A stretch of 47,205 bases of DNA from Xanthocytophaga agilis (GTDB lineage: Bacteria; Bacteroidota; Bacteroidia; Cytophagales; 172606-1). How positions within the stretch are numbered: the stretch's first letter is position 1; each line of letters opens with the position of its first letter. Shown here one piece after another: positions 5,388-46,867 of the stretch. Under the pieces are notes generated by a model. The model saw only the letters and a list, made by a program, of their open reading frames with translations. It was not told where the DNA came from and ran no database searches. The stretch covers positions 1 through 47,205 of the forward strand of contig NZ_JASJOU010000028.1 in assembly GCF_030068605.1 (NCBI RefSeq), read 5' to 3'. The translations under genes were made by a program, and so were the position numbers.

Positions 5388-5760
5388 CCTGAGTCATCCT
5401 GAATTTTGAGGGAAGTATTTTACATTGGAAGCATTATCCGATAGTAAAATAATAAGCTACAAAGAGAGTTACATCCACTTCAATCGTATGCGGTCGTATA
5501 GGTGCGTAGGCAATCTTTTCTCCGCGAGGTTGGCCTTTGGCCTGCGGGCGGAAGGATCGGAGAAAAGGGCCCTTTTTTGCTCACACACAGATCTGGCTCA
5601 CCAAACTCTCGTTTGGTGCCCTGTTTTTTGGGCAAGCAAAAAATGAAGAGATCAGTGGAAGAGTGATGAAAGTGACTATAATCAAACTCAGGAAGAGAGC
5701 TTTTTCAAAAATTACCCTAGGCTTGGGTTTTATTCAAATCCAACATTCAAGATGACTCAT
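5388..5760 (+). repeat. Family-A intergenic repeat, copy 1
   Basis: It starts with CCTGAGTCATC at 5388 and ends with GATGACTCAT at 5751-5760, giving near-inverted termini. Inside are the family-A blocks: ttacaaagagag-like start, acttcaatcg, cgcgaggttggcctttggc, gcccttttttgc, the caccaaa/tttggtg hairpin and gcaagcaaaaaatgaag. The terminal aagccta/taggctt hairpin keeps only its right arm (around 5718-5730). It lies 22 bp after the Rpn stop and 6 bp before the stop of the convergent gene at 5766. It has no coding capacity. Confidence 0.85.
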
Positions 5761-5765
5761 GTTAC

Positions 5766-6221
5766 TTATTTCTTATATTCTGAATACACTGTGTATTGAC
5801 TCAGTAACAGATTCCACTGCGTCACTTCCTCTTTCTGTTTTTCATAGTCCTCTATATTGTCTGACAGATAATCGTTGACAATATCATACTCCATATCATT
5901 GACAATCTTTTTTCGCTTTGCGATTTTTGCCAAAATGCTTTTATTTCCTCTGATATCCTGAGTGGCATTTCTGCCAGTACGTTTTTTATATTCGTCAAAT
6001 AAGGCTTGTTTGAGTTTCGGGTTTTCACATTCTTCCCAGCTTCCCAGCAATTGTCGTTGCAGCATGCCTAACCCAATTGTATTCTTCTTGTTATAAGCAT
6101 CCTGAGCTATTTCTTTTCTGTGAAGAGTAACGGAAATATGCCAATTCTTCACCTCACTACTTACATCAATCATCAATAGGATTCTTTCCAACAAAATATC
6201 GGCTTTTTTCTTTTTTTCCAT
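5766..6221 (-). CDS. Hypothetical protein, charged and helical
   Basis: 151 residues from ATG 6221. No family recognised. It is rich in Lys/Glu, begins MEKKKKADILLERILLMID, and has no membrane segment or signal. The middle part (WEECENPKLKQALFDEYKKR) and end suggest a mostly alpha-helical cytoplasmic protein. Its stop is only 6 bp from the inverted terminus of a family-A repeat, whose hairpin end could act as its terminator. Codon use looks ordinary and the length of open frame supports it being real. Confidence 0.6.
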   Translation of the reverse strand: MEKKKKADILLERILLMIDVSSEVKNWHISVTLHRKEIAQDAYNKKNTIGLGMLQRQLLGSWEECENPKLKQALFDEYKKRTGRNATQDIRGNKSILAKIAKRKKIVNDMEYDIVNDYLSDNIEDYEKQKEEVTQWNLLLSQYTVYSEYKK

Positions 6222-6429
6222 AGAAATGAGTTGGTTACTAAAGCAGTAAAGATATCACCGATTTAGGCTACAAAAAAGAAGGGAAGCAAAGCCAGAGATT
6301 ATTTTTCTTTTGTGTACTACCTAGTTGATCGTGTGTCCAGATTAGAAAAACAGGCATGTGGAATAAAGTTTTTGCAGATTTTAACAGGTATTTTTGTTTA
6401 TACACATAATTTCAAAGTAGCCTGTCAGA

Positions 6430-6819
6430 ATGGCTATGCAAGAGGTTATAGTACCAATCAATCATTTAACTAGTCGAGCTATGAAAGCACTCCCAATAGA
6501 ACAGCTAGAGAAGTATGCAAACCCTGAGCTGGGAAAGCCGATAAATCTCAATGAGGTTGAATCTTTGTATAAAGAAAGTTTTAACCTTGTTTGTCTGCAT
6601 GAATATTTTGAAGGGTGGGAATTCGATTTTTCCTACCAAAAATATATTGACAGTTCTGAAGAAACGAATCTGATCTGGATTAGTGACCAAACTCTTCATA
6701 TAAATGAACACGTATTCGCTTATCCTCTCACCTTGTATGCATTTATTCAGCATTGCAATCAGGTAGGCGTAAACTTAGTGTGGAATCAGAAAATACTAAA
6801 GCGGTTCTATACAGAATGA
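6430..6819 (+). CDS. Hypothetical protein
   Basis: 129 residues from ATG 6430. Acidic, no signal or membrane segment. It contains several aromatic residues (YFEGWEFDFSYQKYID, then LIWISDQTLHINEHVFAYP). No family was recognised. The gap before it (6222-6429) is AT-rich and may hold its promoter, but no clear consensus was seen. Confidence 0.55.
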   Translation: MAMQEVIVPINHLTSRAMKALPIEQLEKYANPELGKPINLNEVESLYKESFNLVCLHEYFEGWEFDFSYQKYIDSSEETNLIWISDQTLHINEHVFAYPLTLYAFIQHCNQVGVNLVWNQKILKRFYTE

Positions 6820-7133
6820 GTAATGAAAAAGACAAAAGTAAAATAAGCTATATAGACATAACATAATCAGAAGATAATAGCCTGCAGTTGCCTATACATG
6901 GCAACTGCTTATTGGCCAAACAACAGGACTTTTTAAAATCATCCAGGATAAAAGAAGTATATAGAGCTGTTTCCAAACAAAATACAATTGATATAGTACA
7001 CCAATAGTATGAAGCATTCCTCAAGCTGACTAGCCGTTTTACACAATGAATGGTATAAGCTCTGAGCAAATAACACCTCAACAAACATATCCAAACAAGT
7101 ATGTCCAAACGGTTATAACAGATCAGTTTCTCT
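6820..7133. other. Intergenic, hairpin only
   Basis: The only structured element is a perfect 9-bp stem gcagttgcc/ggcaactgc (6884-6892 with 6900-6908). It lies between two convergent genes and could be a terminator without a good T-run. An open frame on the minus strand (6848-7183) overlaps the end of the response-regulator gene and has no protein-like features. Confidence 0.45.
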
Positions 7134-7700
7134 TTATTTTTGTTTTGCTCTGAGATAATCGTGTAAAATAGAGCAAATATCATTTGCTAGTATCGGCTTG
7201 AGCAAATAGTCTTTGATAAGTGGAGTTGTGTTTGCTTTCTGAAGATCGAACTGATTAACAAAAGAGGTCAGCAGATAGATTCCCAGCTTTGATTTTACGT
7301 TATTATACCCGGGAATGGCAATGAGTAAATCTGTCAACTTTTTTATAAATTCCCACCCATCCATTTGCGGAAGCACCATATCCAGAAAGATCAAGTCAGG
7401 GAGTGTATCAAAATCCCCTTTCAAAAACAACGTTCTGATTTGAGCCAAAGCCGCAGATGCGGTAGAGAAACAAGATACTTTAACCTGAATCTGCTCAAAT
7501 GGCTGTTCCATTACATCTCTGTTGGATTGGCCTTCACTGTTTATCTTGTGTTCTGACTTAGGAAAACTACTATTCTCTTCTGAGTTCTGTTGGCTTGTTT
7601 TTATTGGATGAAACTGTTCGTTACACACCTTTTCTATTTGTTTTTCAAATATCATTCGATCAACCGGATCATCGTCGACAACATAGATTTTCACAAGCAT
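7134..7700 (-). CDS. Single-domain response regulator with an inserted loop
   Basis: 188 residues from ATG 7700. Receiver domain residues are present: acidic pocket D9-D10-D11 (YVVDDDPVDR), phosphoacceptor D107 (LIFLDMVLPQMDGWEF), T145/S146 and K168 (LLKPI). No output domain, so it probably acts by protein contact in a phosphorelay or on a kinase. Oddity: about 40 extra polar residues (roughly 30-72, rich in Ser/Gln/Glu) lie between the first helix and second strand, making it longer than the usual 120-140. No kinase gene is adjacent. Confidence 0.8.
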   Translation of the reverse strand: MLVKIYVVDDDPVDRMIFEKQIEKVCNEQFHPIKTSQQNSEENSSFPKSEHKINSEGQSNRDVMEQPFEQIQVKVSCFSTASAALAQIRTLFLKGDFDTLPDLIFLDMVLPQMDGWEFIKKLTDLLIAIPGYNNVKSKLGIYLLTSFVNQFDLQKANTTPLIKDYLLKPILANDICSILHDYLRAKQK

Positions 7701-8085
7701 ACCGGATTAGTTTTATCTTTAGTAAAGTATAAAGTAGATATCTCCTTTGAAATTACTTATGATCAGAAAATAACTAATTCGATAAATAGCTAAAAAAGTA
7801 TGCCTGTTCTTTACACTTTTTATAAAAAAAGGAAGAGAACATAGTTAGATTACAATGAATAGGGTTCAGTAGTATTTTGACAGATTTCAGATTATCCGGC
7901 ATCTTTAAAATTTCATATATTCTATCCTGCACTTACATATAACAGATAGTTGACTTTTATCAAAAAATAGAATTAATTGCATTCTATCCTTTACTGTTTT
8001 TTTTGCCTAGATCATTGATTATCAATTTAGTAGGCGTTTTTTTATTTTTCAGATCTGCGGATTCTCTTTAAACTTACGCCAGTAT
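7701..8085. other. AT-rich divergent intergenic region, no gene seen
   Basis: 385 bp between divergently transcribed genes. Strongly AT-rich with poly-T stretches. It must contain promoters for both sides, but I see no clear consensus, repeat or RNA. Confidence 0.5.
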
Positions 8086-8328
8086 ATGAAAACCATACAA
8101 GTAGGACAGAAAGTTATTTTAAGAAAAAATATCAATATCCATTCCATTGAGGTTACTGCTGAAAATGACACTCACAGCCATAGTAGAGAGAAAGAAGTAA
8201 TACTCAAGGAAATTGGAGAAATCCTTAGTGTCGTTGTGGATCAACACGGCCTTGAATGGGTAGTTGAAACCAATCGACTCTTACCATCTGATAACTATTA
8301 TCTCAATTCAATGGATACCAATAAATAG
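8086..8328 (+). CDS. Small hypothetical protein
   Basis: 80 residues from ATG 8086. It begins MKTIQVGQKVILRKNINIHS with a later EIGEILSVVVDQHGLEWVVE, a pattern of short beta strands that might be an SH3/KOW-like barrel. There is no signal or membrane segment. No family recognised; small size limits confidence. Confidence 0.5.
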   Translation: MKTIQVGQKVILRKNINIHSIEVTAENDTHSHSREKEVILKEIGEILSVVVDQHGLEWVVETNRLLPSDNYYLNSMDTNK

Positions 8329-8931
8329 AATAGATTACTCCCTGGTGAGTAGTAGGCTGTGATTGAAACCAGTTTTTTTGTGAAGAAAAAAACGTCTATA
8401 GTATACAAAGTGATATTCGTAACCAGAAAATTATAAGCAATCCTGCAAACCACCAGCCTTTCTTCTTAATCAGGTAAGGTGATTTCTCTAGCGGTTATTT
8501 TGCTTTTTCCCATACTGGTTTTGGAATTGACTGAAAAGAAAGTGTAGAGTCTTTCTCCCCCTTCTCTCATTCTTGTTGTAGCGTGCTTATTTCCATCTAG
8601 TTAGTTTACACCTGCCTTAAAAATAAAGCTATCATGAGCTTGCTCTTGACTAAGCGGATAATGCACTACTTATGCACGATATAATGCCTATTGCCCCCAC
8701 TCCCACTGTTACGAAATATACAACGGATGGGTGCATTTAGCCATTGGTCACAGTGGCGATAGACCCTACTTTTGTACTATACCATCTGTTCATTCAATCA
8801 TCTACCCGGATAGAAAGGTTTGTGAAAAATGTCATTGTCCGTTAAACAGATCACTGAGTAGCATCAGATAGTGCAGCTTATTCTTCCAGCAGCTTTTATT
8901 CGCATTATACCTATTGGTAAATTTTTATACT
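8329..8931. other. 600-bp intergenic region upstream of the protoglobin gene
   Basis: No gene, terminator with T-run, or repeat recognised apart from the putative promoter at 8744-8774. Confidence 0.5.
8744..8774 (+). promoter_or_regulatory. Putative Bacteroidota promoter of the protoglobin gene
   Basis: TTG at 8744-8746, 20-bp spacer, TACTTTTG at 8767-8774. This fits the Bacteroidota sigma-A pattern TTTG/TTG-N19-21-TAnnTTTG. It predicts a leader of about 150 nt before ATG 8932. Confidence 0.45.
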
Positions 8932-9516
8932 ATGCACACTCAAACCACACAAATCCCTGGCTATACCTATGGAGAAGTAGCCACCTCACCCGTATCTGAG
9001 GCTGATTTAGACTTGCTGAAGCAAACCGTACTTTTATCTGAAGAGGATGTACTCTATCTGCAAATGGCAGGAAGAGTACTCGAAGACCAGACAGAAAACA
9101 TACTGGATGTCTGGTATGGCTTTGTAGGCTCACATCCGTATCTGGCTCAGTATTTTGGAAAAAACGATCAGTTGAATGATGCCTATTTAGCCAGCGTACG
9201 TAAGCGCTTCGGGCAATGGATCATGGATACTTGTTTTCGTTCTTACGATCAGCAATGGATGAATTATCAGCATGAGATTGGCCTTCGTCACTTGGTTAAA
9301 AAGAACCAGACGGATGGAGTAGATGCTGTTCCGATTATACACTTCCGATACCTTGTCACTTTTATTGTGCCAATCACTGCAACCATAAAACCGTTTCTGG
9401 CTAGAAAAGGCAATAGTGTAGGCGAAGTTGAGAATATGTACAATGCCTGGTTTAAGGCTATTACACTGACGGTGGCACTCTGGTGTTATCCCTATGTGAA
9501 GGAGGGTACTTTTTAA
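8932..9516 (+). CDS. Protoglobin-domain protein
   Basis: 194 residues from ATG 8932; an in-frame TTG at 8914 is not needed. It matches the single-domain protoglobin/globin-coupled-sensor family: VLEDQTENILDVWYGFVG, then YQHEIGLRH with the expected proximal heme ligand H120, then a VPIIHFRYLVTFIVP segment and a C-terminal helix. No output domain is attached, so it is a heme protein that binds O2, CO or NO rather than a signalling fusion. It lies 88 bp ahead of an alpha/beta hydrolase on the same strand, which could be co-transcribed. Confidence 0.85.
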   Translation: MHTQTTQIPGYTYGEVATSPVSEADLDLLKQTVLLSEEDVLYLQMAGRVLEDQTENILDVWYGFVGSHPYLAQYFGKNDQLNDAYLASVRKRFGQWIMDTCFRSYDQQWMNYQHEIGLRHLVKKNQTDGVDAVPIIHFRYLVTFIVPITATIKPFLARKGNSVGEVENMYNAWFKAITLTVALWCYPYVKEGTF

Positions 9517-9604
9517 GTTCCATTTTTTGCTCCGCCTTACCAGATAAGATCTCCTGTAAAACATACATATAGTTCTTTATCACTCATTTAAACACAAACC
9601 TATT

Positions 9605-10429
9605 ATGACACCTACTCCATCTAAAACCGTAGTCTTTATTACCGGAGCTTTTGTCAGCCACAGTTGCTGGGACGAATGGCGTACCTATTTTGAAAGCAAA
9701 GGCTATTCAACCATTGCACCACCCTGGTTACACAAAGAGGGTACTGCGGCTGAATTACGGGCCAGACAACCCAATGATGTGGCGCTGGCAACTCTTCATT
9801 TGGAAGATCTGGTAAATCATTATGTAAACATTATCAAAGGACTACCTGAAAAACCGATTGTGATTGGTCATTCGTATGGCGGTATGCTTACACAGATCAT
9901 GGTGAATCGCGATCTGGCGGCTGCTGGGGTAGCCATTCATTCCGTCCCTCCACTAGGCGTATTTCCCTATGAATTCTCCTTTCTGAAAGCAGGCTGGAAG
10001 TCGTTGGGACTGTTTACGTCACTGGAAGAAACCTATCTGATGTCTTTTGAAGACTGGCAGTATGCTTTTGTGAATGGAATGTCATTTAATGACCAGATTG
10101 CTTCCTATGAAAAATATATCATACCGGAGTCGAAAACTGTAGCACGGGATGCATTAACCCCTGCAGCAAAAGTAGACTTTGCCAAACCACATGCGCCTTT
10201 GTTGTTTACAGCCGGCGATACAGATCATATTACGCCTGCCCATCTGAATCAACGCAACTTTAAAGCATACGAAGAAAACGGCTCTATTCTCGAGTACAAA
10301 CTCTTTACCAACCGGAATCACTATGTATTGGGACTGCCTACCTGGAAAGAGGATGCAGACTACATCTTACAATGGATAGATAAAGTACAACAGGCTGTGC
10401 CAGTGAGCAGTAATCAGGTCGAAGCCTGA
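9605..10429 (+). CDS. Alpha/beta hydrolase
   Basis: 274 residues from ATG 9605. N-terminal strand and oxyanion turn (VVFITGAFVSHSCWDEW), nucleophile S90 in GHSYGG, acid D205 or D207 in AGDTDH, and H239 in NRNHYVLG. No signal peptide, so cytoplasmic. It resembles the general esterase/lactonase-like hydrolases of soil bacteria; the substrate is unknown. It is the first of three hydrolase genes on this strand separated by repeat-rich gaps. The other two belong to different subfamilies, so this is not a tandem duplication. Confidence 0.85.
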   Translation: MTPTPSKTVVFITGAFVSHSCWDEWRTYFESKGYSTIAPPWLHKEGTAAELRARQPNDVALATLHLEDLVNHYVNIIKGLPEKPIVIGHSYGGMLTQIMVNRDLAAAGVAIHSVPPLGVFPYEFSFLKAGWKSLGLFTSLEETYLMSFEDWQYAFVNGMSFNDQIASYEKYIIPESKTVARDALTPAAKVDFAKPHAPLLFTAGDTDHITPAHLNQRNFKAYEENGSILEYKLFTNRNHYVLGLPTWKEDADYILQWIDKVQQAVPVSSNQVEA

Positions 10430-10503
10430 GCTAGTTGACAACGCCTCTATAGTCTCACTTACCCATTTTTCAATCTTAACTGGTTCAGTTACTTGGCCTT
10501 TGG

Positions 10504-10745
10504 CTTGTCCCATAGCTTTTCTAGAAATGAGTCCAGTAAATAAAGAAAAAGCACCCTTTTCTGTCCTCCTGTAAGGAACTCGTGGCAAGACCGGCGACCT
10601 ATGGATTCTGAATATATTTGTTTCTCTCAGAAAGTAAGCATAGCACTATTTGTCACAAGATTCTTTCAGAAGGACAGCGAAAGGGTGGTTCTTTCAGCAG
10701 GACAAAAGAGAAGAGGGCACAAAAAAGGTTTTAGGAAAAAATCCC
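10504..10745. repeat. Family-B intergenic repeat
   Basis: The outer left end (cttgtcccatagcttttctaga) starts near 10504. The core lies at 10562-10676 (115 bp) with TGTCCTCCTG at the left end and the matching inverted CAGAAGGACA at the right. Inside is gcaagaccggcgacc and, near the right end, actatttgtcacaag. An extra right-arm-like piece (ttctttcagcaggaca) follows at about 10690-10704. It sits between two hydrolase genes and is non-coding. Confidence 0.8.
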
Positions 10746-10791
10746 TCTAAAATTCTATTTATTTTTTTCTCACCTAAACTCACTTCAAACC

Positions 10792-11787
10792 ATGAATGCA
10801 GCAGTTTCACAAACTTCTGGTGTAGCGTACTATGCCGAAGATCCGCGTATCGACCAAGGTACTAAGGCCTTTTTACAGATTCTGAACAATTCAGGCGGCC
10901 CTGCTCTGGAGACGTTGTCTCCGGAAGCCGCCCGGCTAGTGCTGGTAAATGCACAAGCTTCCATACCCGTCGATGTATCAGGTATTGAAACCACAGAGAA
11001 AACCATTACCTATGATGGATATACCGTGAAGCTACACATTGTCCGTCCGGAAGGAGTAAAAGAGGTATTGCCTGTCTTTCTCTTCATACATGGAGGAGGT
11101 TGGGTATTGGGAGACTTTCCTACTCACCAGCGTTTAGTCAGAGATTTGGTAGTACATTCCGGTTATTGTGCTGTGTTTGTTAATTATACTCCATCTCCGG
11201 AAGCTCGCTATCCGCAAGCTCTCAATGAAATTTATGCAACTACCCAATGGGTTGCTGAACATGGTGCAGAAATCAATGTAGATGGAAAACGCCTGGCCAT
11301 AATTGGAAACAGTGCAGGCGGAGATCTGGCAGCAGCTACCTGTTTGATGGCTAAACATAAATCAGGTCCGAAAATTAGTTTACAGATACTACTATGGCCG
11401 GTTACCAACGCAGACTTCGAACTGGATTCATACAAACAATTTGGCGAGGATCGCTTTCTGACGACATCTGTTATGAAATGGATGTGGGATCAGTATGTGC
11501 CAGATCTTGAGAAACGGAAAGAAATCTACGCAGCCCCTTTGCAAGCATCTGTGGAACAGTTAAAAGGCTTGCCTCCTACACTGATCCAAGTAGCGGAGAA
11601 CGATATATTGCGTGATGAAGGAGAAGCCTATGGCTGCAAATTAGATAAAGCAGGGGTAACAGTAACTACCATACGCTACAATGGAATGATACATGACTTT
11701 GGCCTTCTGAACGGTCTGGCAACATTGCCCGCTACACGTTCACTATTTGTCCATGCCGCAGCTGAGCTAACCAAATACCTCGGATAG
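10792..11787 (+). CDS. Alpha/beta hydrolase, hormone-sensitive-lipase family
   Basis: 331 residues from ATG 10792. HSL-family signature: HGGGW at residues 100-104 forming the oxyanion hole, nucleophile S174 in GNSAGGDLAA, acid D271 in AENDILRDEG, and H301 in MIHDFGLL. The family hydrolyses short-chain acyl esters. No signal peptide, length normal. A hairpin of 11-bp stem follows the stop by four bases. Confidence 0.9.
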   Translation: MNAAVSQTSGVAYYAEDPRIDQGTKAFLQILNNSGGPALETLSPEAARLVLVNAQASIPVDVSGIETTEKTITYDGYTVKLHIVRPEGVKEVLPVFLFIHGGGWVLGDFPTHQRLVRDLVVHSGYCAVFVNYTPSPEARYPQALNEIYATTQWVAEHGAEINVDGKRLAIIGNSAGGDLAAATCLMAKHKSGPKISLQILLWPVTNADFELDSYKQFGEDRFLTTSVMKWMWDQYVPDLEKRKEIYAAPLQASVEQLKGLPPTLIQVAENDILRDEGEAYGCKLDKAGVTVTTIRYNGMIHDFGLLNGLATLPATRSLFVHAAAELTKYLG

Positions 11788-11791
11788 CATT

Positions 11792-11829
11792 CCAGGCAGG
11801 TAGGTGTATAAAGATGCTTACCTGCCTGG
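11792..11829 (+). terminator. Strong hairpin after the HSL-type hydrolase gene
   Basis: Perfect 11-bp stem ccaggcaggta/tacctgcctgg with a 16-nt loop, starting 4 bp after the stop. It lacks a T-run, so it may be an RNA 3'-end stabiliser rather than a classical terminator. Confidence 0.5.
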
Positions 11830-12003
11830 CTATAGAGAATGAGAAAAGCGTGATAGCATATGCTGATTCCTCATTTTGCATCGCTGATTTATAGCCAGAA
11901 TAGCTGATAGGGCTTTTACTCTCCTTCTTCCAGCACGCTTGTTGTCTGGCAGGTTATTCTATAGTCCATTCATAACTTAATGTTCCCTAAACACAATCAA
12001 ACC

Positions 12004-12804
12004 ATGCGACTTTTATTTATCATTCTTATGCTTACCAGCACTCTTCTAACTACATCCTGTGATGATGACAAAGACGAGGCAGATCCGAAACCAACCTTTG
12101 TGTTTGTACATGGCACCTTTGCCGGTCAATATGCCTGGCATCTGATTAAACCCAAACTTGAGGCGAAAGGCTACCAGGTAGTGACCTTTGATCTACCTGC
12201 TCATGGCGATGATCAGACACCTGTTAGCCAAGCCAACTTTGAACTGTATGTAAAGACAACAGTAGACAAAATCAATGCGATTCCAGGAAAGGTAGTACTA
12301 GTCGGCCACAGCGGTGGTGGAATGGTTATCACAGCAGCAGCAGAACGGATTCCTGCAAAGATTGAAAAGCTGGTGTATATGTGCGCCTTTTTGCCCAAAA
12401 GTGATCAGACTCTCTACGAACTGGCTATCTCTGATACGGCAAGCTTGCTCGGACGCAGCCTGCAACCCTCTCAGGATGGATTAACCGCCTCACTACCGGA
12501 AGATGTGCTGATCCAGGTGTTTGCGGTTGATGCGTCAGAAGAGATTCAGAAGGTAGTCGCGAAAACACGGCCAGAACCGTTGGCTATCTTTCAGGGTAAA
12601 GCAACATTAACGGCTGCTAATTTTGGTAAAATACCCAAGTACTACATTAAAACGCTTAAAGACGAAGGTATCACCCCAGCCACGCAACAGAAAATGATTG
12701 ATGCCAATGGCTCTGTTGTCAAGACCTATACTATGAACACAAGTCATAGCCCCTACTGGGCTCAGCCCGATGAATTGGTGACTATTCTACAGGAAATAAA
12801 CTAA
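12004..12804 (+). CDS. Alpha/beta hydrolase lipoprotein
   Basis: 266 residues from ATG 12004, chosen because it starts the lipoprotein signal MRLLFIILMLTSTLLTTSC; C19 would be lipidated. The acidic residues right after it (DDDKDEAD) recall the Bacteroidota surface-export signal. Catalytic parts: FVHGTFAGQYAW, nucleophile S103 in GHSGGGM, and a C-terminal TSHSPYW with the likely His. It resembles the small esterase/hydroxynitrile-lyase-like branch. It is predicted on the outer membrane, possibly the cell surface. The substrate is unknown. Confidence 0.85.
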   Translation: MRLLFIILMLTSTLLTTSCDDDKDEADPKPTFVFVHGTFAGQYAWHLIKPKLEAKGYQVVTFDLPAHGDDQTPVSQANFELYVKTTVDKINAIPGKVVLVGHSGGGMVITAAAERIPAKIEKLVYMCAFLPKSDQTLYELAISDTASLLGRSLQPSQDGLTASLPEDVLIQVFAVDASEEIQKVVAKTRPEPLAIFQGKATLTAANFGKIPKYYIKTLKDEGITPATQQKMIDANGSVVKTYTMNTSHSPYWAQPDELVTILQEIN

Positions 12805-12819
12805 AGTGAGGCTGGCCGC

Positions 12820-13231
12820 TTATCGTTTCCCAAACTTTTCCAGAAAGGAGTCCGGTAAATAAAGGAAAAGCACCCTTTTCTGTCCTCCTGAAAGGACCTC
12901 ATGACAAGACCGGCGGCCTTTGGATTCTGACTATATTTGTTTCTCTCAAAAAACAATCATGTCACCTAATTTGAAAGCAACGTCCGTTGCGTTGGGACAA
13001 ATAGAGCCAAGTTTAGGTTTGTGATAATACCCAAACAAGGTTTTACCCACCAACGCAGCGTCCGCTCAATGCTGTCAAGGTAAGGGAGTTTATTTCTTTT
13101 TTCCATATTTCTTTATTGTCCTTCTGAAAGAATCTTGTGACAAATAGAGTGGCGCTTGTATTATGAGCGAAAAAAATACTCTCCAAATTCAGTGGCCGCC
13201 GGTCTTGCCACGAGTTCCTTTCAGGAGGACA
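12820..13231. repeat. Composite family-B repeats
   Basis: A left half of family B (12881-12960, with accggcggcc and tatatttgtttctctc) follows the usual left flank. It is interrupted by a mosaic stretch containing the gcaac-gtcc-gttgc hairpin and gggacaaatagagcc. A complete 115-bp core follows at 13117-13231, bounded by TGTCCTTCTGAAAG and CTTTCAGGAGGACA. It abuts a family-A copy 44 bp further on. Confidence 0.75.
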
Positions 13232-13274
13232 AGAGGGGGTTGAGAGGGTAAAAAGAGAGTTTTCTCAAAAATAC

Positions 13275-13736
13275 ATCAGTCATCCCAAATTTTGAGGAAA
13301 AGAATATCACATTCCTTAAGAAAAAGAGAAACAAAGGAGTTACAAAGAGAGCCAAGATCACTTCAATCGTGGATGGTGGTGCAGGTGCGTTGGCCTTCCT
13401 TTTCCCGCGAGGTTGGCCTTTGGCCTTGCGGGCGGAAGGATCGGGAAAAGGTGCCCTTTTTTGCAGCTAGCACAAATCCTGGCCCAACAAATTCTCATTT
13501 GTTGTCCTTTTTTGGGCAAGCAAAAAATGAAGGGGCCACAAGTAGAGTAAAGAAAAGGATTAGAAACAAACACAGGAAGAGACAAGCAAAAAAGTAACAG
13601 GGTGATAAGAAGAGAAATGTTCTGAACAATAAACAAACGCAGAAAGAAACATTTCTCAAAAAGAAACCCAAGCCTACACCATTTTTAAAAGCATAGGCTT
13701 GGATTTTACTCATATCCTAAATTCATAATGACTCAT
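13275..13736 (+). repeat. Family-A intergenic repeat, copy 2
   Basis: Left end ATCAGTCATC at 13275, right end ATGACTCAT at about 13736. It contains acttcaatcg, ggtggtgcaggtgcg, cccgcgaggttggcc, the aacaaat/atttgtt hairpin, gcaagcaaaaaatgaag, and a complete terminal hairpin (13668-13702, ccaagccta/taggcttgg). The hairpin end lies 26-60 bp from the stop of the convergent histidine-kinase gene at 13762. Confidence 0.85.
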
Positions 13737-13761
13737 GTATATACCTATCTGTTTTGTACTT

Positions 13762-23856: not shown

Positions 23857-23871
23857 GAACTATCTGATAAC

Positions 23872-24287
23872 ATGATTCATCCCGGATTTTGGATGTGAGT
23901 AAAACCCAAGCCTATACAATTTTCAAAAGTTTAGGCTTGGGTTTATTTTTGAGAAATGTTTCTTTCTGCGTTTGTTTATTATTCAGAACATTTCCCTTCT
24001 TATCACCCTGTTACTTTTTTGCTTGTCTCTTCCTGTGTTTGTTTTATTGTCACTTACTTTTCTCTTCCACTGACCTCTTCATTTTTTGCTTGCCCAAAAA
24101 ACAGGGCACCAAATGAGAATTTGGTGAGCCAGATTTGTGCGTGTGCAAAAAAGAGCACTTTCTGCCGAACCTGCTCCGCGCAAAGCCGGGGGCTTTCCTC
24201 GCGGCAGAAAGAAGGCCAGCGCACAGATACGACCTTCCACGATTGAAGGAAGTTTAATTCTTTTTGTAATATTTTTCTTGTCCGCCT
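23872..24287 (-). repeat. Family-A intergenic repeat, copy 3 (reverse)
   Basis: Terminus ATGATTCATC at 23872. The terminal hairpin lies at 23903-23943 (cccaagccta/taggcttggg followed by tttattttt on the plus strand), 47 bp after the lipoprotein stop. Further in come cttcattttttgcttgc, the caccaaat/atttggtg hairpin, cgcgg and cacgattgaag. The distal inverted terminus is missing; the copy fades near a family-B element at 24305. Confidence 0.85.
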
Positions 24288-24304
24288 AAATAAACACCCC
24301 TCTC

Positions 24305-24440
24305 TGTCCTTCTGAAAGAATCCTGTGACAAATAGAGTGGCGCTTGGTTTCTGAGAGAAAAAATTATTCTCCTGTAGAAAACGTGGCTCTATTTGTCACA
24401 CCTGTCCCGACAATAGCGGAAAGTTTCTTTCAGAAGGACA
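24305..24440. repeat. Family-B intergenic repeat with palindrome insertion
   Basis: 136 bp bounded by TGTCCTTCTGAAAG and CTTTCAGAAGGACA, containing gacaaatagagtggcgcttg and ggctctatttgtca. It is about 21 bp longer than the other cores, the extra being cctgtcccgacaatagcgga near the right end. It lies 24 bp downstream (on the gene's strand) of the esterase stop at 24464. Confidence 0.8.
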
Positions 24441-24463
24441 GTAAGGGATAAGGGTAAAAAGAA

Positions 24464-26084: not shown

Positions 26085-26118
26085 CAGACAAATGATTGAT
26101 CAATGACAGATGTTGAGT

Positions 26119-26781: not shown

Positions 26782-26884
26782 CTCACAATCTGTTTTGATG
26801 ATACAAAATTACTACTTCCTGCTACCCTCCGCATTGATTTCAGGCAAGAAAAAGTCTTGACAAAAGTCAATGAAATGAAGCATT

Positions 26885-27463: not shown

Positions 27464-27527
27464 GAATAAACCAATCTATTGGTAGCAACTGAGAGTTCTT
27501 AAGCTAAGTTATAGTAAATTAACCTGA

Positions 27528-28142
27528 TTAGCTGCGTTCGTTTCGAATTTCGCTTAAATACTGGGGCGTAATTCCCAAATAAGAAGCAATCTGTGTATTG
27601 GGCAAGCGCAGAGCAAGTTTTGGGTATTGTTCCAGAAATGCCGCATAGCGTTCCTGTGCGGTAGAACTGATATTTTGCAGAACCTGATTTTGTAACTCGA
27701 CAAATTTATTCTCTATAATGACTTTAAAGATACGATCAAGCTTCGGAATGGATTGATACAAAAAATAAAGATCTTGTTGTTCAATCTGCAAGATAAGAGA
27801 CGGCTCAATGGCTTCAATAAACAGCTTGCTTGACTTATTGGAATGAAAACTGCCTATATCTGCAATCCAGTCGTTCTCAGCAGCAAATTGGATATTATGT
27901 TGGTTCCCTTTCTGATCAACCCCATACATTTTAAAACACCCTTCCACTACAAAACTATAATGCTTACAGGGGAAGCCTTCCTGCAAGATATGTTGTCTGC
28001 GTTTGATCTTACGTTGTGTTACCCGCCCTTCCAGCAATTGCATTTCGCTTTCTTTTAAGGGGAGATAACTTTCAAAATGAGCAATGAGAGGTTCAAGCAT
28101 CTGGTTATAGAGAGAATCTGTTTTTTGTTCCAAAGCTAACAC
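27528..28142 (-). CDS. Crp/Fnr family regulator (second)
   Basis: 204 residues from ATG 28142. Cyclic-nucleotide-binding domain (KRRQHILQEGFPCKHYSFVVEG) and C-terminal helix-turn-helix (SYLGITPQYLSEIRNERS). It is divergent from the NADP-binding gene at 28279 and is a paralogue of the regulator at 26885. The layout of regulator plus reductase occurs twice in 3 kb. Confidence 0.85.
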   Translation of the reverse strand: MLALEQKTDSLYNQMLEPLIAHFESYLPLKESEMQLLEGRVTQRKIKRRQHILQEGFPCKHYSFVVEGCFKMYGVDQKGNQHNIQFAAENDWIADIGSFHSNKSSKLFIEAIEPSLILQIEQQDLYFLYQSIPKLDRIFKVIIENKFVELQNQVLQNISSTAQERYAAFLEQYPKLALRLPNTQIASYLGITPQYLSEIRNERS

Positions 28143-28161
28143 AAAAACTATTTTTCCTTCT

Positions 28162-28190
28162 AAATAATGGCATTACATCGCCATCATTAA
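28162..28190. promoter_or_regulatory. Inverted repeat in the Crp/reductase divergent region
   Basis: atggc/gccat arms separated by 8 bp (28167-28184), with partial extension taat…atta. It lies between two divergent starts, a usual place for autoregulation by a Crp/Fnr protein. The half-site does not match the classical Crp or Fnr consensus, so the assignment is tentative. Confidence 0.3.
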
Positions 28191-28278
28191 ACTAGTTGAA
28201 TGGTATTTCTTCAGAAACCTGAAAGGTTGCATTCCTGAATACTTCTGACCTTTGCCTCATCATTTAAACCATAAGACC

Positions 28279-28941
28279 ATGTCAAAAACATCAGAATCAA
28301 AAGTTGCTATCATCGGATTAGGGAATATTGGCCAAGTAGTAGCCACTAATTTGACTAAGGGCAATCGTCCCGTTATTCTGGCTTCCCGCGACTATTCACA
28401 GGCCAAATGTCTTGCGGAAAAGTTAGGAAACCTCGCCCAGCCAATGGAAATCAGTGCCGCTCTTCAGGAAGCAGATATTATTATTTTGGCTATCTGGTTT
28501 TCTTCTATCAAAGAATTTCTAAATCAATATGCGACACAGTTAGAAGGTAAAATCATTATTGATCCTTCGAATCCTATTGCTCCTGATGGAAAGGGTGGTT
28601 TTGTCAAAACGATTGATGCAACTAATTCTGCCGGCCAAATCAATCATTCATTACTGCCTAAGGGAGCTAAACTGGCAAAAGCTTTAGGTACACTCGGGGC
28701 AGCTTCATTAGCCAACGCCTCTGATCAAAAGCCCGAACCGGCCGTTCTGTTCTATGCAACTAATGATCAAAGCATTAATACTAAAATTGAAGAACTGATC
28801 TGGGATACAGGTTTTGAACCACTATATGTGGGTAATTTAGATCAATCCATTCGAATCGAAGTGTTTGGAGAGTTACATGAGTTCGGTGCATTAGGAAAAA
28901 CCGTAACAGCAGATGAAATACGTCGTTCTGTAGCTGTTTAG
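28279..28941 (+). CDS. NADPH-dependent F420-reductase-like protein (paralogue)
   Basis: 220 residues from ATG 28279 (MSKTSESKVAIIGLGNIGQV); an upstream ATG at 28252 gives an unlikely extension. Rossmann motif GLGNIGQVVA, then IIILAIWFSSIKE and IIDPSNPI. A paralogue of the gene at 26119. A family-A repeat starts 10 bp after the stop and provides a hairpin at 28984-29020. Reaction and substrate unknown. Confidence 0.8.
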   Translation: MSKTSESKVAIIGLGNIGQVVATNLTKGNRPVILASRDYSQAKCLAEKLGNLAQPMEISAALQEADIIILAIWFSSIKEFLNQYATQLEGKIIIDPSNPIAPDGKGGFVKTIDATNSAGQINHSLLPKGAKLAKALGTLGAASLANASDQKPEPAVLFYATNDQSINTKIEELIWDTGFEPLYVGNLDQSIRIEVFGELHEFGALGKTVTADEIRRSVAV

Positions 28942-28950
28942 TTAATAAAC

Positions 28951-29567
28951 ATGAGTCATCTCGGATGTTGGATATGAGTAAAACTCAAGCCTATACTTTT
29001 AAAAATAGTGTAGGCTTGAGGTAATTTTTATGAAAGCTCTCTTTCTTCGTTTGTTTAAAATCCAGAACCTATCTCTTTTTTATCGCCTTGTCACTTTTTT
29101 GTCACGCCACAGCGTGATAACCCAAAAAAGGCACTTTTTCCTGATCTTTCCGCCCGCAAGGCCATGGGCTTTCCCTTATCCTGTTCCATATTTTTTCTAG
29201 AAACATGGTTTGTAAATAAAGAAAAAACACTCTCCCTGTCCTCCTGAAAGGATCTCGTGACAAATAGAGCCATGCCTGGTTTGTGAGAAAACAAATACAT
29301 TCCAAAACCTAAGGCCGCCGGTCTTGCCACGAGGTCCTTTCAGGAGGACAAAAAAGGGTGTAATGGCACAAAAAAGAGATTATCCCCTAAAGCTGCAAAA
29401 TTGAAAAACTTATGGGACAGGATAAGGTGCCAACCTCGCGAGAAAAAGATTCCCTACGCCCCTACACCACCACACACGATTGAAGTTATCTTTGCTCTCT
29501 TTGTAACATCTTTGTATTGTTATATATGTCAGTCAAATTCTTTTCCTCAAAATTTGGGATGACTCAT
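28951..29567 (-). repeat. Family-A intergenic repeat, copy 4 (reverse), split by family B
   Basis: Termini ATGAGTCATC at 28951 and GATGACTCAT ending at 29567. Terminal hairpin at 28984-29020 (ctcaagccta/taggcttgag). The body is interrupted at the cgcgaggttggc core by a 254-bp family-B element (29174-29427). The variable hairpin here is tcacgc-tgtg-gcgtga rather than caccaaa/tttggtg. Starts 10 bp after the reductase stop. Confidence 0.9.
29174..29427. repeat. Complete family-B element nested in family A
   Basis: Outer 17-bp inverted repeats CCTTATCCTGTTCCATA / TATGGGACAGGATAAGG with one mismatch, at 29174 and ending at 29427. The inner core lies at 29237-29350 (114 bp), bounded by TGTCCTCCTGAAAG/CTTTCAGGAGGACA. 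It is the best-preserved family-B copy and shows the full element has two nested inverted repeats. Confidence 0.85.
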
Positions 29568-29765
29568 GTATTTTTGAGAGAAAAGATCTAATGCACATAC
29601 TGCATAGATTAAAGATCTTTTCCTGAATTAGGTCTCTATATATTCCATTATTATATATCAAACACACTGAGACTGAACGAATACATTTTTTGTGATACCA
29701 TTTGCCTTTGTTGTAAGTTGCTACATTTATCTATATTTTGAGCTGCTTTTCCGGAAAACACTCAA

Positions 29766-30503
29766 ATGAAAAATCAACAAAGCAATCCATTTATCCTTGC
29801 TCTTACAGCCCACAATCTTACCGTAGAGATCCACAAACATTCAGCGTATCAGATTGTTTTAACCAATGACGCACCGTTTACCTCAACGATTAACGGGCAG
29901 TTGTGTAAAAATATCTATGGCTTTTTGATCAAACCACAGGTTACCCATTTGTGTGTAGCTGAAAAAGGAACATTGAATGTTTTCAATATAGAGCCGTATT
30001 CTACTATTGGTTTGGAACTTGCCAACAGATTCGCTGCTGATCAGGACTATATTGTTTTTCATTCCGAAAACGAAATGGAAGCTTTCTTTCAAACCGGAAC
30101 GAATCGTTTTGATATTGACACCCTCATTACAGCATTGGTGTCACAACTACCTGCTACACAATATGATGAAAGGGTGACAAAAATGGTTGATTATATCCGA
30201 ACCAACTTCTTTGAACGGGATATTAACCCACAAACCTTTGCTGATATCGTTTTCCTTTCTCCTTCTCGTTTAGCTTCACTGTTTAAAGAACAAACGGGTA
30301 GTAGCTTGTCTAAATATTTATTGTGGACAAGGATACGTCAGGCTGTTTACCTTACCCTTTCTGACAAAGACAAGAGCCTTACAGACATCGCCTACGATAC
30401 GGGCTTTTACGATCTTCCCCAACTCAACAAGTATATGTATGAAATGTTTGGTATGCCACCCAAGGCTTTAAAGCACAATAGTGATCTGATACAAGTCTAT
30501 TAG
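29766..30503 (+). CDS. AraC family transcriptional regulator
   Basis: 245 residues from ATG 29766. Short N-terminal part (ALTAHNLTVEIHKHSAYQIV, cupin-like) and a C-terminal double helix-turn-helix (SPSRLASLFKEQTGSSLSKY and SLTDIAYDTGFYDLPQLNKY). It is first in a same-strand group with an MDR reductase, an NmrA-like SDR and an old yellow enzyme, suggesting it controls them, perhaps in response to electrophiles or quinones. Preceded by the family-A copy and 200 bp of AT-rich DNA. Confidence 0.9.
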   Translation: MKNQQSNPFILALTAHNLTVEIHKHSAYQIVLTNDAPFTSTINGQLCKNIYGFLIKPQVTHLCVAEKGTLNVFNIEPYSTIGLELANRFAADQDYIVFHSENEMEAFFQTGTNRFDIDTLITALVSQLPATQYDERVTKMVDYIRTNFFERDINPQTFADIVFLSPSRLASLFKEQTGSSLSKYLLWTRIRQAVYLTLSDKDKSLTDIAYDTGFYDLPQLNKYMYEMFGMPPKALKHNSDLIQVY

Positions 30504-30553
30504 ACGTGCACACCCGATCTTTGTAGCATCAATCATTTAAACAAAAACAGAAA

Positions 30554-31495
30554 ATGAAAACGATCGCTTACAACATGTTTGGTGGCACTGAAGTGTTACA
30601 AACCATAGATGAACCAACACCTTCTATCCAGGCAGATCAGGTTCTGGTAAAAATCAAAGCAGTTTCAATTAATCCTTTGGATTGGAAAATCAGAAAAGGA
30701 GAAATGAAACTGATGTCAGGTTCGAAATTTCCAAAGCATACAGGCACTGACTTTGCGGGTGTTATTGAAGAGGTTGGATCATCAGTAACTACCTTCAAAA
30801 AAGGAGATGAAGTGTTTGGTATAGTGAAAAACAATATGAAAGAGGGAGCCTTAGGCGAGTATGTTGCGGTGCCTGCTACATCTGTCTGGAAAAAACCTGC
30901 AGCTATCAGTTTTGCTCAGGCGGCTTCCATTCCTACGGTTGGAGGTGCGGCTGTTGCAGCATTTCAGAAAATGGGAAAGATCAATTCGCAATCTCACATT
31001 TTGATCAATGGAGCAACAGGAGGTTTCGGTATGTTCTTGTTACAACTATTAAAGCCTACAGGAGCAAACGTAACAGCCGTTACAAGTACCAATGGGGTGG
31101 CCTATGCTAAAGAATGGGGAGCTACTTCGGTAGTGGATTATAAAAAAGAAAATATACTTTCCCGCAAAACAACCTATGATGTTGTCATTGATCTATCAGG
31201 TAAAATGGGGTATAAAAACGCCAAACAGATAATGAAACCTCAGGCCCTGTTTTTAAATCCGGTTCCCCAGCCTATTGACATTCCAACCACACTGATTCAA
31301 AATCTATTCAGAAGTAAAAAGCATATTGCCCTAATAACCGCCCCTTCTGAAAAAAGCATCAATTTATTGTTACAGGGTATAGATAAGGGACTAACCATTG
31401 AGGTAGGCAAAGTATTTCCCTTTACTCAAACTCAGGAAGCCTATCAGTATGCAGAGAAAGGTGGATACATTGGCAAGGTAGTCATAGAGCTCTGA
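30554..31495 (+). CDS. NAD(P)-dependent MDR-type alcohol dehydrogenase/quinone reductase
   Basis: 313 residues from ATG 30554. Medium-chain reductase fold: GroES-like part (ADQVLVKIKAVSINPLDWK, GTDFAGVIEEVG) and nucleotide-binding NGATGGFGMFLLQL. No catalytic or structural zinc cysteines are visible, so it belongs to the zinc-free quinone oxidoreductase branch. It starts 50 bp after the AraC gene. Likely reduces quinones or enones with NAD(P)H. Confidence 0.88.
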   Translation: MKTIAYNMFGGTEVLQTIDEPTPSIQADQVLVKIKAVSINPLDWKIRKGEMKLMSGSKFPKHTGTDFAGVIEEVGSSVTTFKKGDEVFGIVKNNMKEGALGEYVAVPATSVWKKPAAISFAQAASIPTVGGAAVAAFQKMGKINSQSHILINGATGGFGMFLLQLLKPTGANVTAVTSTNGVAYAKEWGATSVVDYKKENILSRKTTYDVVIDLSGKMGYKNAKQIMKPQALFLNPVPQPIDIPTTLIQNLFRSKKHIALITAPSEKSINLLLQGIDKGLTIEVGKVFPFTQTQEAYQYAEKGGYIGKVVIEL

Positions 31496-31754
31496 ACATC
31501 CTCAGCCAGATGCCTCTATGAGGATGTGTTAGTAAGGCATCATACTGTAAATCCACATACATACTCTAATTCAGTGCCGTAGATCAACTAGTTTGTGATC
31601 TATGTGGTAGCACCGTGTCTGTCCTTTCAAGTCTACCATATAATCTCCAACGACAGATACACAACTCAACTACAGTGATCTGATACAAGTTTATCCTTGT
31701 TCAGCAAAGTAATTTTACATCATCATTCATCACTAACATTTAACATATACACAT
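31496..31754. other. Intergenic region with hairpin and a copy of the AraC gene's 3' end
   Basis: A hairpin (acatcctca/tgaggatgt, 31496-31504 with 31519-31527) begins right after the MDR stop. The 21-bp sequence agtgatctgatacaagt.tat at 31674-31694 repeats, with one mismatch, the last coding bases of the AraC gene (30480-30500). The bases after each copy are also loosely similar. This suggests that a segment was duplicated or inserted here. Confidence 0.6.
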
Positions 31755-32642
31755 ATGATTTTGGTAACAGGAGCAAACGGGCACCTTGGGAAAGCTATTA
31801 TCCATTCCCTACTAAACAAAGGCGTTAAACCTAACACTATTATTGGCTTGGTTAGAGAAACCGCCAAAGCAGAAGATTTACAAGCAAAAGGCATCACACT
31901 ACGAGTAGGTGACTATGACTGGTACCCTACATTGGTCAAGGCTTTTACAGGGATTGACAAATTAATCCTGGTAGCAGGTAGAGATCTGACCAGCAGAGCC
32001 GAACAACATGATAGTGTAATCACAGCAGCAAAAGAAGCTGGAGTAAAACATCTGCTATACACAAGTTTTTTTGACGAAAATGCAGTTAAAAACTCTCCAT
32101 TTGACTTTGTATCTTCCTCTATCAAGACCACAGATGCAACGATTAGAGAAAGTGGGATTCCGTATACTATTTTTAAAGACAATCTGTATACAGAATTGTT
32201 ACCTCTGCTTTTAGGAGATAAGGTAATGGAAAACGGCATTTATTTACCAGCTGGTGAAGGTAAGGCCGCGTATGTAACCCGCACCGACATAGCTGAAGCC
32301 ATAGCAAATGTCTGTCTGCAGGAAGGTCATTATAATAAAGAGTATAATATCAGTAATACGGAAAATGTGTCTCTGGCTGAAATTGCTGATATTTTAAGTA
32401 CGCAAGGCGGAGTGGATATACAGTACACCAGTCCTTCAAAAGCGGAGTATATGGCTACTATGGAGAAAGCCGGGCTGCCTCCTCAATCCATCAAAATATT
32501 TTCAGCCCTGTCAGAAGCCATTAGCTTAGGTGAGTTTCAATCTTCTTCAACAGATCTGGAATTGCTTCTGGGCAGAAAACCTTTGTCCGCAAAGCAATTT
32601 TTAACACAAACATATTTTACAACCACCACTAACGTAATTTAA
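31755..32642 (+). CDS. NmrA-like/SDR NAD(P)-binding reductase (QOR2-like)
   Basis: 295 residues from ATG 31755. Atypical short-chain dehydrogenase: N-terminal GANGHLGKAI, no YxxxK catalytic pair evident, with the AEQHDSVITAAKEAGVKHLLYTSF and GIPYTIFKDNLYTE stretches of NmrA/QorB proteins. Probably an NADPH-dependent quinone reductase. Its stop is 3 bp from the old yellow enzyme start, so the two are co-transcribed. Confidence 0.88.
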   Translation: MILVTGANGHLGKAIIHSLLNKGVKPNTIIGLVRETAKAEDLQAKGITLRVGDYDWYPTLVKAFTGIDKLILVAGRDLTSRAEQHDSVITAAKEAGVKHLLYTSFFDENAVKNSPFDFVSSSIKTTDATIRESGIPYTIFKDNLYTELLPLLLGDKVMENGIYLPAGEGKAAYVTRTDIAEAIANVCLQEGHYNKEYNISNTENVSLAEIADILSTQGGVDIQYTSPSKAEYMATMEKAGLPPQSIKIFSALSEAISLGEFQSSSTDLELLLGRKPLSAKQFLTQTYFTTTTNVI

Positions 32643-32645
32643 AAA

Positions 32646-33728
32646 ATGAAACTGTTTGATAAAACCCAGTTAGGGAAACTAACATTGAAAAATAGAATGG
32701 CGATGTCTGCCATGACCCGAAGTCGTGCCGATATAAACGGAGTAGTAGGTGATTTAACCGTTGAGTATTATACACAAAGAGTAAGTGCAGGACTACTCTT
32801 TACAGAAGCCATTACTATTAGTGAACAAGCCATAGGAAGCCCTTTTACCCCTGGCATTTTTACACCCGACCAGATTGAAGCCTGGAAGAAAGTTACAAAA
32901 GCGGTTCATGACAGAGGGGGTGTCATTATTGCCCAGCTTTGGCATACCGGAAGGGCTGGTCATTCGGTTGATCGCAAAGGTGTATTACCGGTTGCACCGT
33001 CAGCGGTTGCCATTACCGGAATGAAACATTTTACCTCTCAGGGTCTCAAAGACTACGAAACACCGAGGGCACTAACAGTTGATGAAATTAAACAAATCAT
33101 ACTGGATTACGGTCAGGCAGCCAGAAATGCAATGGCCGCAGGGTTTGATGGTGTAGAACTGCATGCAGCGAATGGGTATCTGCCCAATCAGTTTTTAGCA
33201 GAAAGCGCCAACAAACGAACAGACGAATATGGAGGAAGTATTGAAAATAAAACTCGTTTTGTTCTGGAAGTAATGCAGGAGCTGATCCGTGCTGTCGGAG
33301 GGGATAAAGTAGGGATAAAAATATCGCCTTTTCATCCCTATGGAGATATGTTAGTGGACAACCCGGTTGCCACCTATACTCATTTGATTGAGGAACTCAA
33401 CAAACTGGATTTTACCTATGTAGAGTTAATGAAACGTAGTCCGCTATTCTCGGCGGTGCCGGGTTATCCAGAAGATGATGAAATTGAGTTATTTGGCAGA
33501 ATGGTAAAGCATACCCTTATAGCCAATACTGGCTACGACAAAGTGTCTGCCGAAGCAGAACTTGAAAAAGGCATTGCCAAAATCATTTCTTTTGGTACAC
33601 TATTTTTAGCAAATCCTGACCTTCCAAAACGATTCGAAAAAGATGCCCCTCTTAACCAACCTGACAGAGCTACTATGTTTGGAGGCGGCGCACAAGGGTA
33701 TATTGACTACCCATTCCTAAATGCCTAA
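32646..33728 (+). CDS. Old yellow enzyme family alkene reductase (NemA-like)
   Basis: 360 residues from ATG 32646. FMN-dependent ene-reductase: AMSAMTRSRAD, AQLWHTGRAGH, GFDGVELHAANGYLPNQFL and NKRTDEYGGS are hallmark motifs, and the length is normal. Reduces activated C=C bonds and nitro groups with NAD(P)H. Immediately follows the SDR gene; AraC, MDR, SDR and OYE form a plausible electrophile-detoxification set. Confidence 0.93.
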   Translation: MKLFDKTQLGKLTLKNRMAMSAMTRSRADINGVVGDLTVEYYTQRVSAGLLFTEAITISEQAIGSPFTPGIFTPDQIEAWKKVTKAVHDRGGVIIAQLWHTGRAGHSVDRKGVLPVAPSAVAITGMKHFTSQGLKDYETPRALTVDEIKQIILDYGQAARNAMAAGFDGVELHAANGYLPNQFLAESANKRTDEYGGSIENKTRFVLEVMQELIRAVGGDKVGIKISPFHPYGDMLVDNPVATYTHLIEELNKLDFTYVELMKRSPLFSAVPGYPEDDEIELFGRMVKHTLIANTGYDKVSAEAELEKGIAKIISFGTLFLANPDLPKRFEKDAPLNQPDRATMFGGGAQGYIDYPFLNA

Positions 33729-33780
33729 GCTAACTGTTTTAGCTTTTCAGCTGGAGTCTACATCAGGACGATACGGATTG

Positions 33781-34429
33781 CCTTATTCTGTCCCATATCT
33801 TTTCTGGAAGACCTATAATTAAAGAAAAAAATACTCTCTTTGGAAAACAATTCCATGTCTCTGTCCTTCTGAAAGAACCACCCTTTCTCTGTCCTTCTGA
33901 AAGAATCTTCTGGCAAGGTTAGCGACCTTTCCCATTGGAGTGTATTTTTTTCTCTCAGAAGCCAAAGATGGCTCTATTTGTCAAAAGTCTCTTTCAGAAG
34001 GACAAAAAAGGACATGAGTCATCTCGAATTTTGAATAAAGAATCTCATTGAGAAGGGATAATAAATGTTACAAAGAGAGCAAAGGAAACTTCAATCGCGG
34101 AAGGTGGTGTAGGTGCGTAGGCAATCTTTTTCCCGCGAGGTTGGCTCTTGGCCTTGCGGGGCGAAGCTTTGGAATTTTTTGCCCTTTTTTGCTCACACAC
34201 AAATCTGGCTCACCAAACGAGAGTTTGGTGAGCCAGATTTGTGTGTGAGCAAAAAATGAAGAGATCAGTGGAAGAGTGATGAAAGTGACAATAAACAAAC
34301 GAAGAAAGAGATCTTTCTCAAAAATTGCCCTAAGCCCATACTTTCAAAAGTATAGGCTTGGGTTTTACTCATATCCAACATTTGGGATGACTCACATTCA
34401 AAATTAAAAAAGTTATGAAACAAGATAAG
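33781..34429. repeat. Family-B element split by a family-A insertion
   Basis: Outer left end ccttattctgtcccata at 33781. A stray left arm lies at 33862, then the core at 33890-34004 (115 bp) with TGTCCTTCTGAAAG and CTTTCAGAAGGACA. The expected right end (aaaagttatgaaacaagataag) is found only at about 34408-34429, on the far side of a complete family-A copy (34014-34394). So family A inserted into family B here. Confidence 0.75.
34014..34394 (+). repeat. Family-A intergenic repeat, copy 5, with a 34-bp perfect hairpin
   Basis: Termini ATGAGTCATC at 34014 and GATGACTCA ending at 34394. The central hairpin is perfect over 34 bp (34185-34218 with 34223-34256, loop gaga), whereas in other copies only the inner 7-8 bp pair. 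The terminal hairpin lies at 34328-34362. It is nested in a family-B copy, downstream of the old yellow enzyme gene and convergent with the Gfo/Idh gene. Confidence 0.9.
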
Positions 34430-46854: not shown

Positions 46855-46867
46855 AATAATAGTAAAG

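Follow-up and report, generated by a model that had tools for sequence, protein, structure and literature searches.

Among the short dispersed repeats described in bacteria, those closest to the element considered here are the CGTC-tagged repetitive extragenic palindromes (REPs), palindromes of 20-40 bp with a loop of 4-5, stems of 8-9 bp and a terminal CGTC (or TGTC, CCTC) tag, which lie mostly downstream of genes or between convergent genes and lack a dedicated transposase, some families being found inside palindromes (PMC3733652, Di Nocera et al., 2013). The same account leaves open how such transposase-less palindromic repeats spread, and name RUP, NEMIS, ERIC and Bcr1 as bacterial miniature inverted-repeat transposable elements (MITEs). 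In REPINs and bacterial interspersed mosaic elements (BIMEs), which go with a RAYT (REP-associated tyrosine transposase), two inverted palindromic units make up one dispersed unit, with no target duplication (PMC3116915). Our subject is a further repeat, family A, five copies of which (c1-c5) lie in a stretch of Xanthocytophaga agilis DNA (contig NZ_JASJOU010000028.1; the whole 47,205-nt stretch is called the window). At the same slots, family A and ordinary terminator-like hairpins seem to be interchangeable between this organism and its sister species, X. flavus. Group IIC introns, which insert after terminator hairpins, offer a further comparison.

Family A resembles the CGTC-tagged REPs in its tagged palindromic arms, with a stem starting AT, in its location at gene 3' ends and between convergent genes, and in that no dedicated transposase was found for it. 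It differs from them in its tag (AGTC), in its size (384 bp, some 340 bp of it between the arms) and in an arm longer than their stems and, as tag and size are two defining features, we do not file it among them; its exchange of places with unique terminator hairpins also sets it apart from these repeats as described in the portions of PMC3733652 used here. As in REPINs and BIMEs, its inverted palindromic units act as one dispersed unit without target duplication, but the spacer is much longer, terminator slots are exchanged, and neither Xanthocytophaga genome has a RAYT. With the bacterial MITEs named above it shares short length, non-coding content, inverted ends and proximity to genes, but not a consistent target duplication, and the fetched loci bearing A ends held no transposase element with the same ends. 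Its putative target, a terminator hairpin recognised by structure, would recall group IIC introns; unlike them, however, A has inverted ends and usually replaces the hairpin, and the Rfam scan of the window gave no intron match. Narrow searches of the open-licence literature found no description of terminator replacement by such an element, which is weak evidence of absence.

Exchange of family A and hairpins between sister species

With 60-base queries joined together (53 pieces), the flanks of A copies were placed in the genome of X. flavus YF14B1; the loci fetched in this way numbered 39 and were joined by those around X. flavus's own A copies. Twenty-nine sites were examined as candidates for the presence of A in one species only, and 23 were resolved on both flanks, one of them (L028, where an upstream insertion had displaced the near anchor) by a separate reading; the remaining six (L031:8729, L043, L053, L068, L127 and L026:3765) were set aside with a flank poorly aligned or out of order. 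Replacement blocks listed automatically were for the most part stretches of ordinary divergence and were left aside.

At 16 of the 23 resolved sites, the other species has a different hairpin element in place of A. This is most often a single hairpin missing from the A allele (14 sites: L021, L015, L044, L014, L027, L040, L039, L126, L057, L064, L028, L019, L035:5173 and L150:5486), and otherwise a pair of hairpins of family C (slot L009:5771, seen in L151) or a copy of family B (slot L055, seen in L179), two further repeats described below. Among the 14 single hairpins, the stem strength of 11 was reached by at most 2 of 100 shuffles, two were weaker (0.08 and 0.10), and one was folded but not shuffled. 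Among the 16 exchanged sites, seven (L015, L044, L014, L040, L039, L057 and L126) have precise borders, with no more than two unaligned flank bases on either side. Copies of the hairpin bracket A at another three of the 23 (L042, L124 and L132, the other allele at L132 having a single hairpin copy and, after it, a family B element), and at one (L060:7117) the left half of the hairpin is kept beside A. In the window's genome, nothing matched ten of 11 slot hairpins taken from X. flavus (E<0.1, with 40 of 50 candidates scored), the eleventh being the bracketing pair at L042.

As a control, 82 other strong intergenic hairpins were placed in both species, and 71 of them were homologous. Among the 11 that were not, seven face A, three look decayed and one is AT-rich and doubtful (window 37843); the control loci had been picked around A, which inflates the share facing it. 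Exchange of one plain hairpin for another was essentially absent from the 82.

Slots occupied by A in both species are not static either. In 19 of 34, the two copies are less than 93% identical, although several of the flanks (L071, L017 and L066) are 95-97% identical; slot content is therefore subject to general turnover. A copies exchange content with one another: c4, for example, matches the X. flavus slot of c1 at 93% over 540 columns.

Structure, distribution and surroundings of the family

Profile searches with the five window copies, run over the window and 72 loci fetched from the same genome, gave at least 79 elements, both ends being present in 45, and c1-c5 are thus a sample of a family spread across the genome. 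The consensus is non-coding, without a notable open frame, and has inverted ends of 22 bp (ACATGAGTCATCCCGAATTTTG); between these arms the core carries further palindromes, with a strong hairpin and T-rich flank near one end. Allowing at most one mismatch, the end pattern TGAGTCATCNNNAATNTT occurs 94 times in the genome and its reversed control four times, so the ends are not due to chance. These features bear out the original prediction of a transposase-free, MITE-like dispersed element, and the 22-bp ends and short non-coding consensus fall within the usual description of MITEs (terminal inverted repeats of 15-30 bp). Copies vary among themselves by indels and truncation. A 53-bp miniature at L011:3650-3704 consists of two A ends with almost no spacer, and solo A ends adjoin plain terminator-like hairpins at L067:3791, L072:3913 and L076:4024.

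No consistent excess of target duplications was found around the 45 two-ended copies (k = 2-9, 81 offset pairs), small excesses occurring at odd offsets only; insertion with a target-site duplication was therefore rejected, the short duplication being a part of the MITE description that A lacks. The flanking bases are A-rich before the element and T-rich after it, and of the 14 positions shown, two alone (2 and 4) had significantly more flank palindromy than base composition predicts. Direct or inverted flank repeats were likewise rejected as a general feature, L042 and L062:4222 alone standing out among the 79. A flank piece of L062 (~3962-4021) belongs to another multi-copy intergenic repeat, with about 20 matches in X. 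flavus. In the fetched loci carrying A ends there was no long end-to-end pair with a gene of its own, and no transposase between such ends.

With genes called by a simple open reading frame rule (at least 100 aa), convergent genes flank 42 of the 79 elements, co-directional genes 33 and divergent genes four, compared with 51, 251 and 80, respectively, of 382 A-free gene pairs in the same loci (Fisher test, p 2.4e-13 for convergent and 3.6e-4 for divergent pairs). Family A strongly prefers gene 3' ends, and its copies are not scattered regardless of gene orientation. The original prediction had also held that the hairpin end faces a stop codon. This is so in the window; over the genome, a gene 3' end adjoins the hairpin end of 61 of the 79 elements and the opposite end of 56. 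Such an orientation is therefore not a general rule and was rejected as one; at co-directional sites the hairpin end points to the gene end 19 times, against 14 for the other end (binomial p 0.49).

The stem of the terminal hairpin varies in sequence among copies (CCCAAGCCTAT, CCAGCGTCTAT, ATCAGCGTCTAT and others) with pairing retained. In 53 of 59 copies counted, 94.3% of cells were paired, against 84.1% after shuffling; cells changed on both sides numbered 69, against 21.0 (sd 3.6), and the covariation score was 0.415, against 0.235, neither value being reached in any of 500 shuffles. The simple reading of this compensatory change is selection for pairing, although templated correction of palindromes during replication could be another source of it. 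A GC-containing hairpin followed by a T-rich tract, as in intrinsic terminators, is seen in the element (arms and tails listed for 59 copies); the terminal hairpins of c3-c5 went unmarked in a simple terminator scan (loop limit 3-8). In hairpin, tail, conserved pairing and gene-end preference, the element is terminator-like, as had been suggested, and it may terminate transcription.

Family A has many copies in X. flavus, a single weak match in a third Xanthocytophaga genome (72% complete) and, at E<=0.001, none in the five genomes searched from other genera within the family. A search of genome contigs with the 22-base end pattern, which possibly left out the window's genome, gave 18 stretches (11 from X. 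flavus, five from Saprospiraceae and one each from Chitinophagales and Poribacteria). Outside the genus, the arm lies within a short hairpin (ATCCCGAATTTTGG-loop-CCAAAATTCGGGAT) in six of seven stretches, followed by a T-rich stretch in five. The Saprospiraceae hairpins are of the 20-40 bp palindrome class with a loop of about 5, and several carry CGTC; one Saprospiraceae metagenome-assembled genome (G406, loci L203 and L206) has 57 matches to a 17-base arm, those read being mostly 40-bp palindromes tagged CGTC or AGTC. Among 395 Bacteroidota genomes, a draw that did not include the sister species, the solo arm matched only the window's own genome. The earlier view that A belongs to no described family needs partial amendment, as its ends are the arms of REP-like hairpins of Saprospiraceae that resemble CGTC-tagged REPs (PMC3733652).

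Copies in the window, an inversion and neighbouring repeats

The five copies originally predicted are present to within a few bases of the positions first given, with the common ends, block order and terminal hairpin then described and with the neighbours then named (four lie between convergent genes, c4 between co-directional ones), subject to three corrections: c3 has lost its distal end (its model match stops at position 349-351 of 384), an inner block is duplicated in c2 and c3 (overlapping model matches), and c4 is interrupted by family B. The half-loss of the hairpin in c1 was also correctly seen; the same slot in the sister species (L130:991-1620) holds an A copy with the whole hairpin.

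Table 1. Positions of family A copies and other features in the window
Feature	Position	Strand	Remarks
A copy 1 (c1)	5388..5762	-	hairpin end at 5762; single hairpin arm left, ~5718-5727
A copy 2 (c2)	13273..13738	-	inner block duplicated; one inversion breakpoint relative to sister species
c2 terminal hairpin	13664..13706	-	
A copy 3 (c3)	23870..24294	+	distal inverted end lost; 98.6% identical in sister species
c3 terminal hairpin	23902..23944	+	
A copy 4 (c4)	28949..29569	+	split by family-B-bearing insert; other inversion breakpoint
c4 terminal hairpin	28981..29023	+	
Family B core within c4	29237..29350	+	part of longer insert, in loop region of an inner A hairpin
A copy 5 (c5)	34012..34395	-	sister-species slot filled by another A copy (identity 79.8% for the element, 92.6% for the flanks)
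c5 terminal hairpin	34328..34363	-	approximate limits, by eye
Family B copies	10552-10676, 12871-12961, 13117-13240, 24305-24440, 29237-29350, 33890-34004		
Tandem array	1-128		contig start; 13-base unit GCCTGTGGTTGTT
Large inverted repeat	3159-3465		90-nt arms, 89% complementary, 127 nt apart
5S rRNA	46865-46976	-	sole Rfam match

A 15-kb segment of the window (~13.5-28.9 kb) has the opposite orientation in X. flavus, and each junction is an A element, c4-left being joined to c2-left around L143:12536-12948 and c4-right to c2-right around L142:11897-12316. The arrangement is consistent with recombination between c2 and c4, which are inverted relative to each other; with copies at both of its junctions, A shapes gene order.

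Family B, a second dispersed palindromic repeat (114-bp consensus, TGTCCTTCTGAAAG...CTTTCAGGAGGACA; 76 copies in loci of both species), splits an inner hairpin of A twice, in c4 and at L046. Between the species it shows six listed differences (one site counted twice) among 26 shared sites, too few for a test. Family C, a third hairpin repeat (CGTTGGTGATAACACCAACG), occupies or brackets A slots (L151 ~4915-5000, L026/L132, L150 ~5880-5990).

How the exchanges may have arisen

The explanation that we favour, to which we would give a probability of about 0.55, is that family A is a mobile, non-autonomous REP/MITE-like repeat that moves into terminator slots and supplies a terminator of its own. 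Its home would be the transcription-terminator slot at gene 3' ends, and the step that we judge most likely is its insertion, by some enzyme, at the base of the extruded terminator hairpin. Cutting at that point would lead to the resident hairpin being lost (the usual case), duplicated on either side of A or halved. The hairpin of A would then take over termination at the slot, so that the insertion would be tolerable. A more specific proposal, which we put forward tentatively, is that intrinsic terminator hairpins are landing sites defined by structure and not by sequence, with the enzyme acting at the hairpin base and the element replacing the terminator with its own. The sequences show the slot exchange, the compensatory change in the hairpin of A, the gene-end preference, the A copies at the two ends of the inversion and the exchange of content among copies, whereas the direction of change, from hairpin to A, the guidance of cutting by structure, the enzyme and termination itself are inferred.

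Several observations count against this explanation. The nearest sampled relatives of A copies confined to one species have a median identity of only 87.4% (20 copies), although the species differ there by only about 4-6%; this gives no support to recent transposition out of any sampled copy, an idea that was rejected. The flanks at one-species sites are also more diverged (median identity 0.937, n 22) than those of slots with orthologous A (0.964, n 15; p 0.005), most of all over the nearest 100 bp (0.914 against 0.958), a difference that import of slot alleles would lead one to expect. Right borders are untidy at several sites (57 bases at L035:5173 and 141, the maximum, at L150:5486), and at three of the 23 (L025, L063 and L032) there is no hairpin in the other species. 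Relatives in other genera lack A at four sites (seven loci) and have sequences unlike the Xanthocytophaga hairpins, so they do not fix the direction of exchange. As regards the terminal hairpin, six of the 59 copies had been excluded as damaged before covariation was counted, and only eight pairs had a change on both sides, a figure that was not significant, as 71 of 500 shuffles reached it.

Some of these points would suit a history in which A is old and now silent, and A-free slots were restored by homologous import from A-free relatives, the exchange proceeding by recombination in the flanks. We regard this as a serious but doubtful alternative. The lack of near-identical A donors, the greater flank divergence at one-species than at fully orthologous shared sites, and the turnover of content in slots that hold A in both species all speak for it, but the difference in flank divergence is modest, the bracketing hairpin copies at L042, L124 and L132 are left unexplained, and such import should swap plain terminators as well, whereas none of the 82 control hairpins was clearly replaced by an unrelated plain one (one is doubtful). 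Three further ideas were tried and dropped. For a mosaic origin of one-species copies, there was no clear difference from shared copies (35.7% of 210 windows, against 31.5% of 257, had an identity of at least 94% to some other copy); for a younger age of one-species copies, end mismatches were fewer (median 4 against 10.5, p 0.014, partly through truncation) but nearest-paralog scores did not differ (p 0.15); and biased mutagenesis was at odds with a mixed spectrum (1865 transitions, 2051 transversions).

Ordinary MITE insertion beside terminators, followed by loss of the redundant native hairpin, seems to us unlikely. It would accord with the inverted ends and non-coding sequence, and with the native terminator kept beside A at L063, and the gene-end preference may simply reflect purifying selection against insertion in promoters (compare the few divergent sites), but A lacks a consistent target duplication, and the exact loss of hairpins at the seven sites with precise borders (0-2 unaligned bases on both sides) would need repeated precise deletions. 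Movement of A as a REP/REPIN-type element by a RAYT, a Y1 HUH transposase, would account for palindromic arms akin to REP-like hairpins, for the location at 3' ends and between convergent genes and for the lack of target duplication; it was rejected, and we think it very improbable, on a search for Y1_Tnp (PF01797) that was negative in both Xanthocytophaga genomes but positive in five of 14 control genomes. Still less credible is the other option raised by the original prediction, a structured non-coding RNA with the terminal hairpin as its 3' end: the covarying hairpin is the only positive sign of it, and against it stand the lack of an Rfam match for A in the window (gathering thresholds), the lack of a genome-wide orientation rule and the variation of the whole element by indels and truncation.

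About 20 orthologous sites, with A in one species and a plain hairpin in the other, make the exchange readable at base level. If the takeover of terminator slots is correct, A would be a mobile element that exchanges terminators and thereby keeps gene ends functional, and terminators would be a target class for mobile DNA. Such a self-compensating insertion strategy may also be a way in which palindromic repeats that lack a transposase, for instance REPs of the CGTC type, spread.

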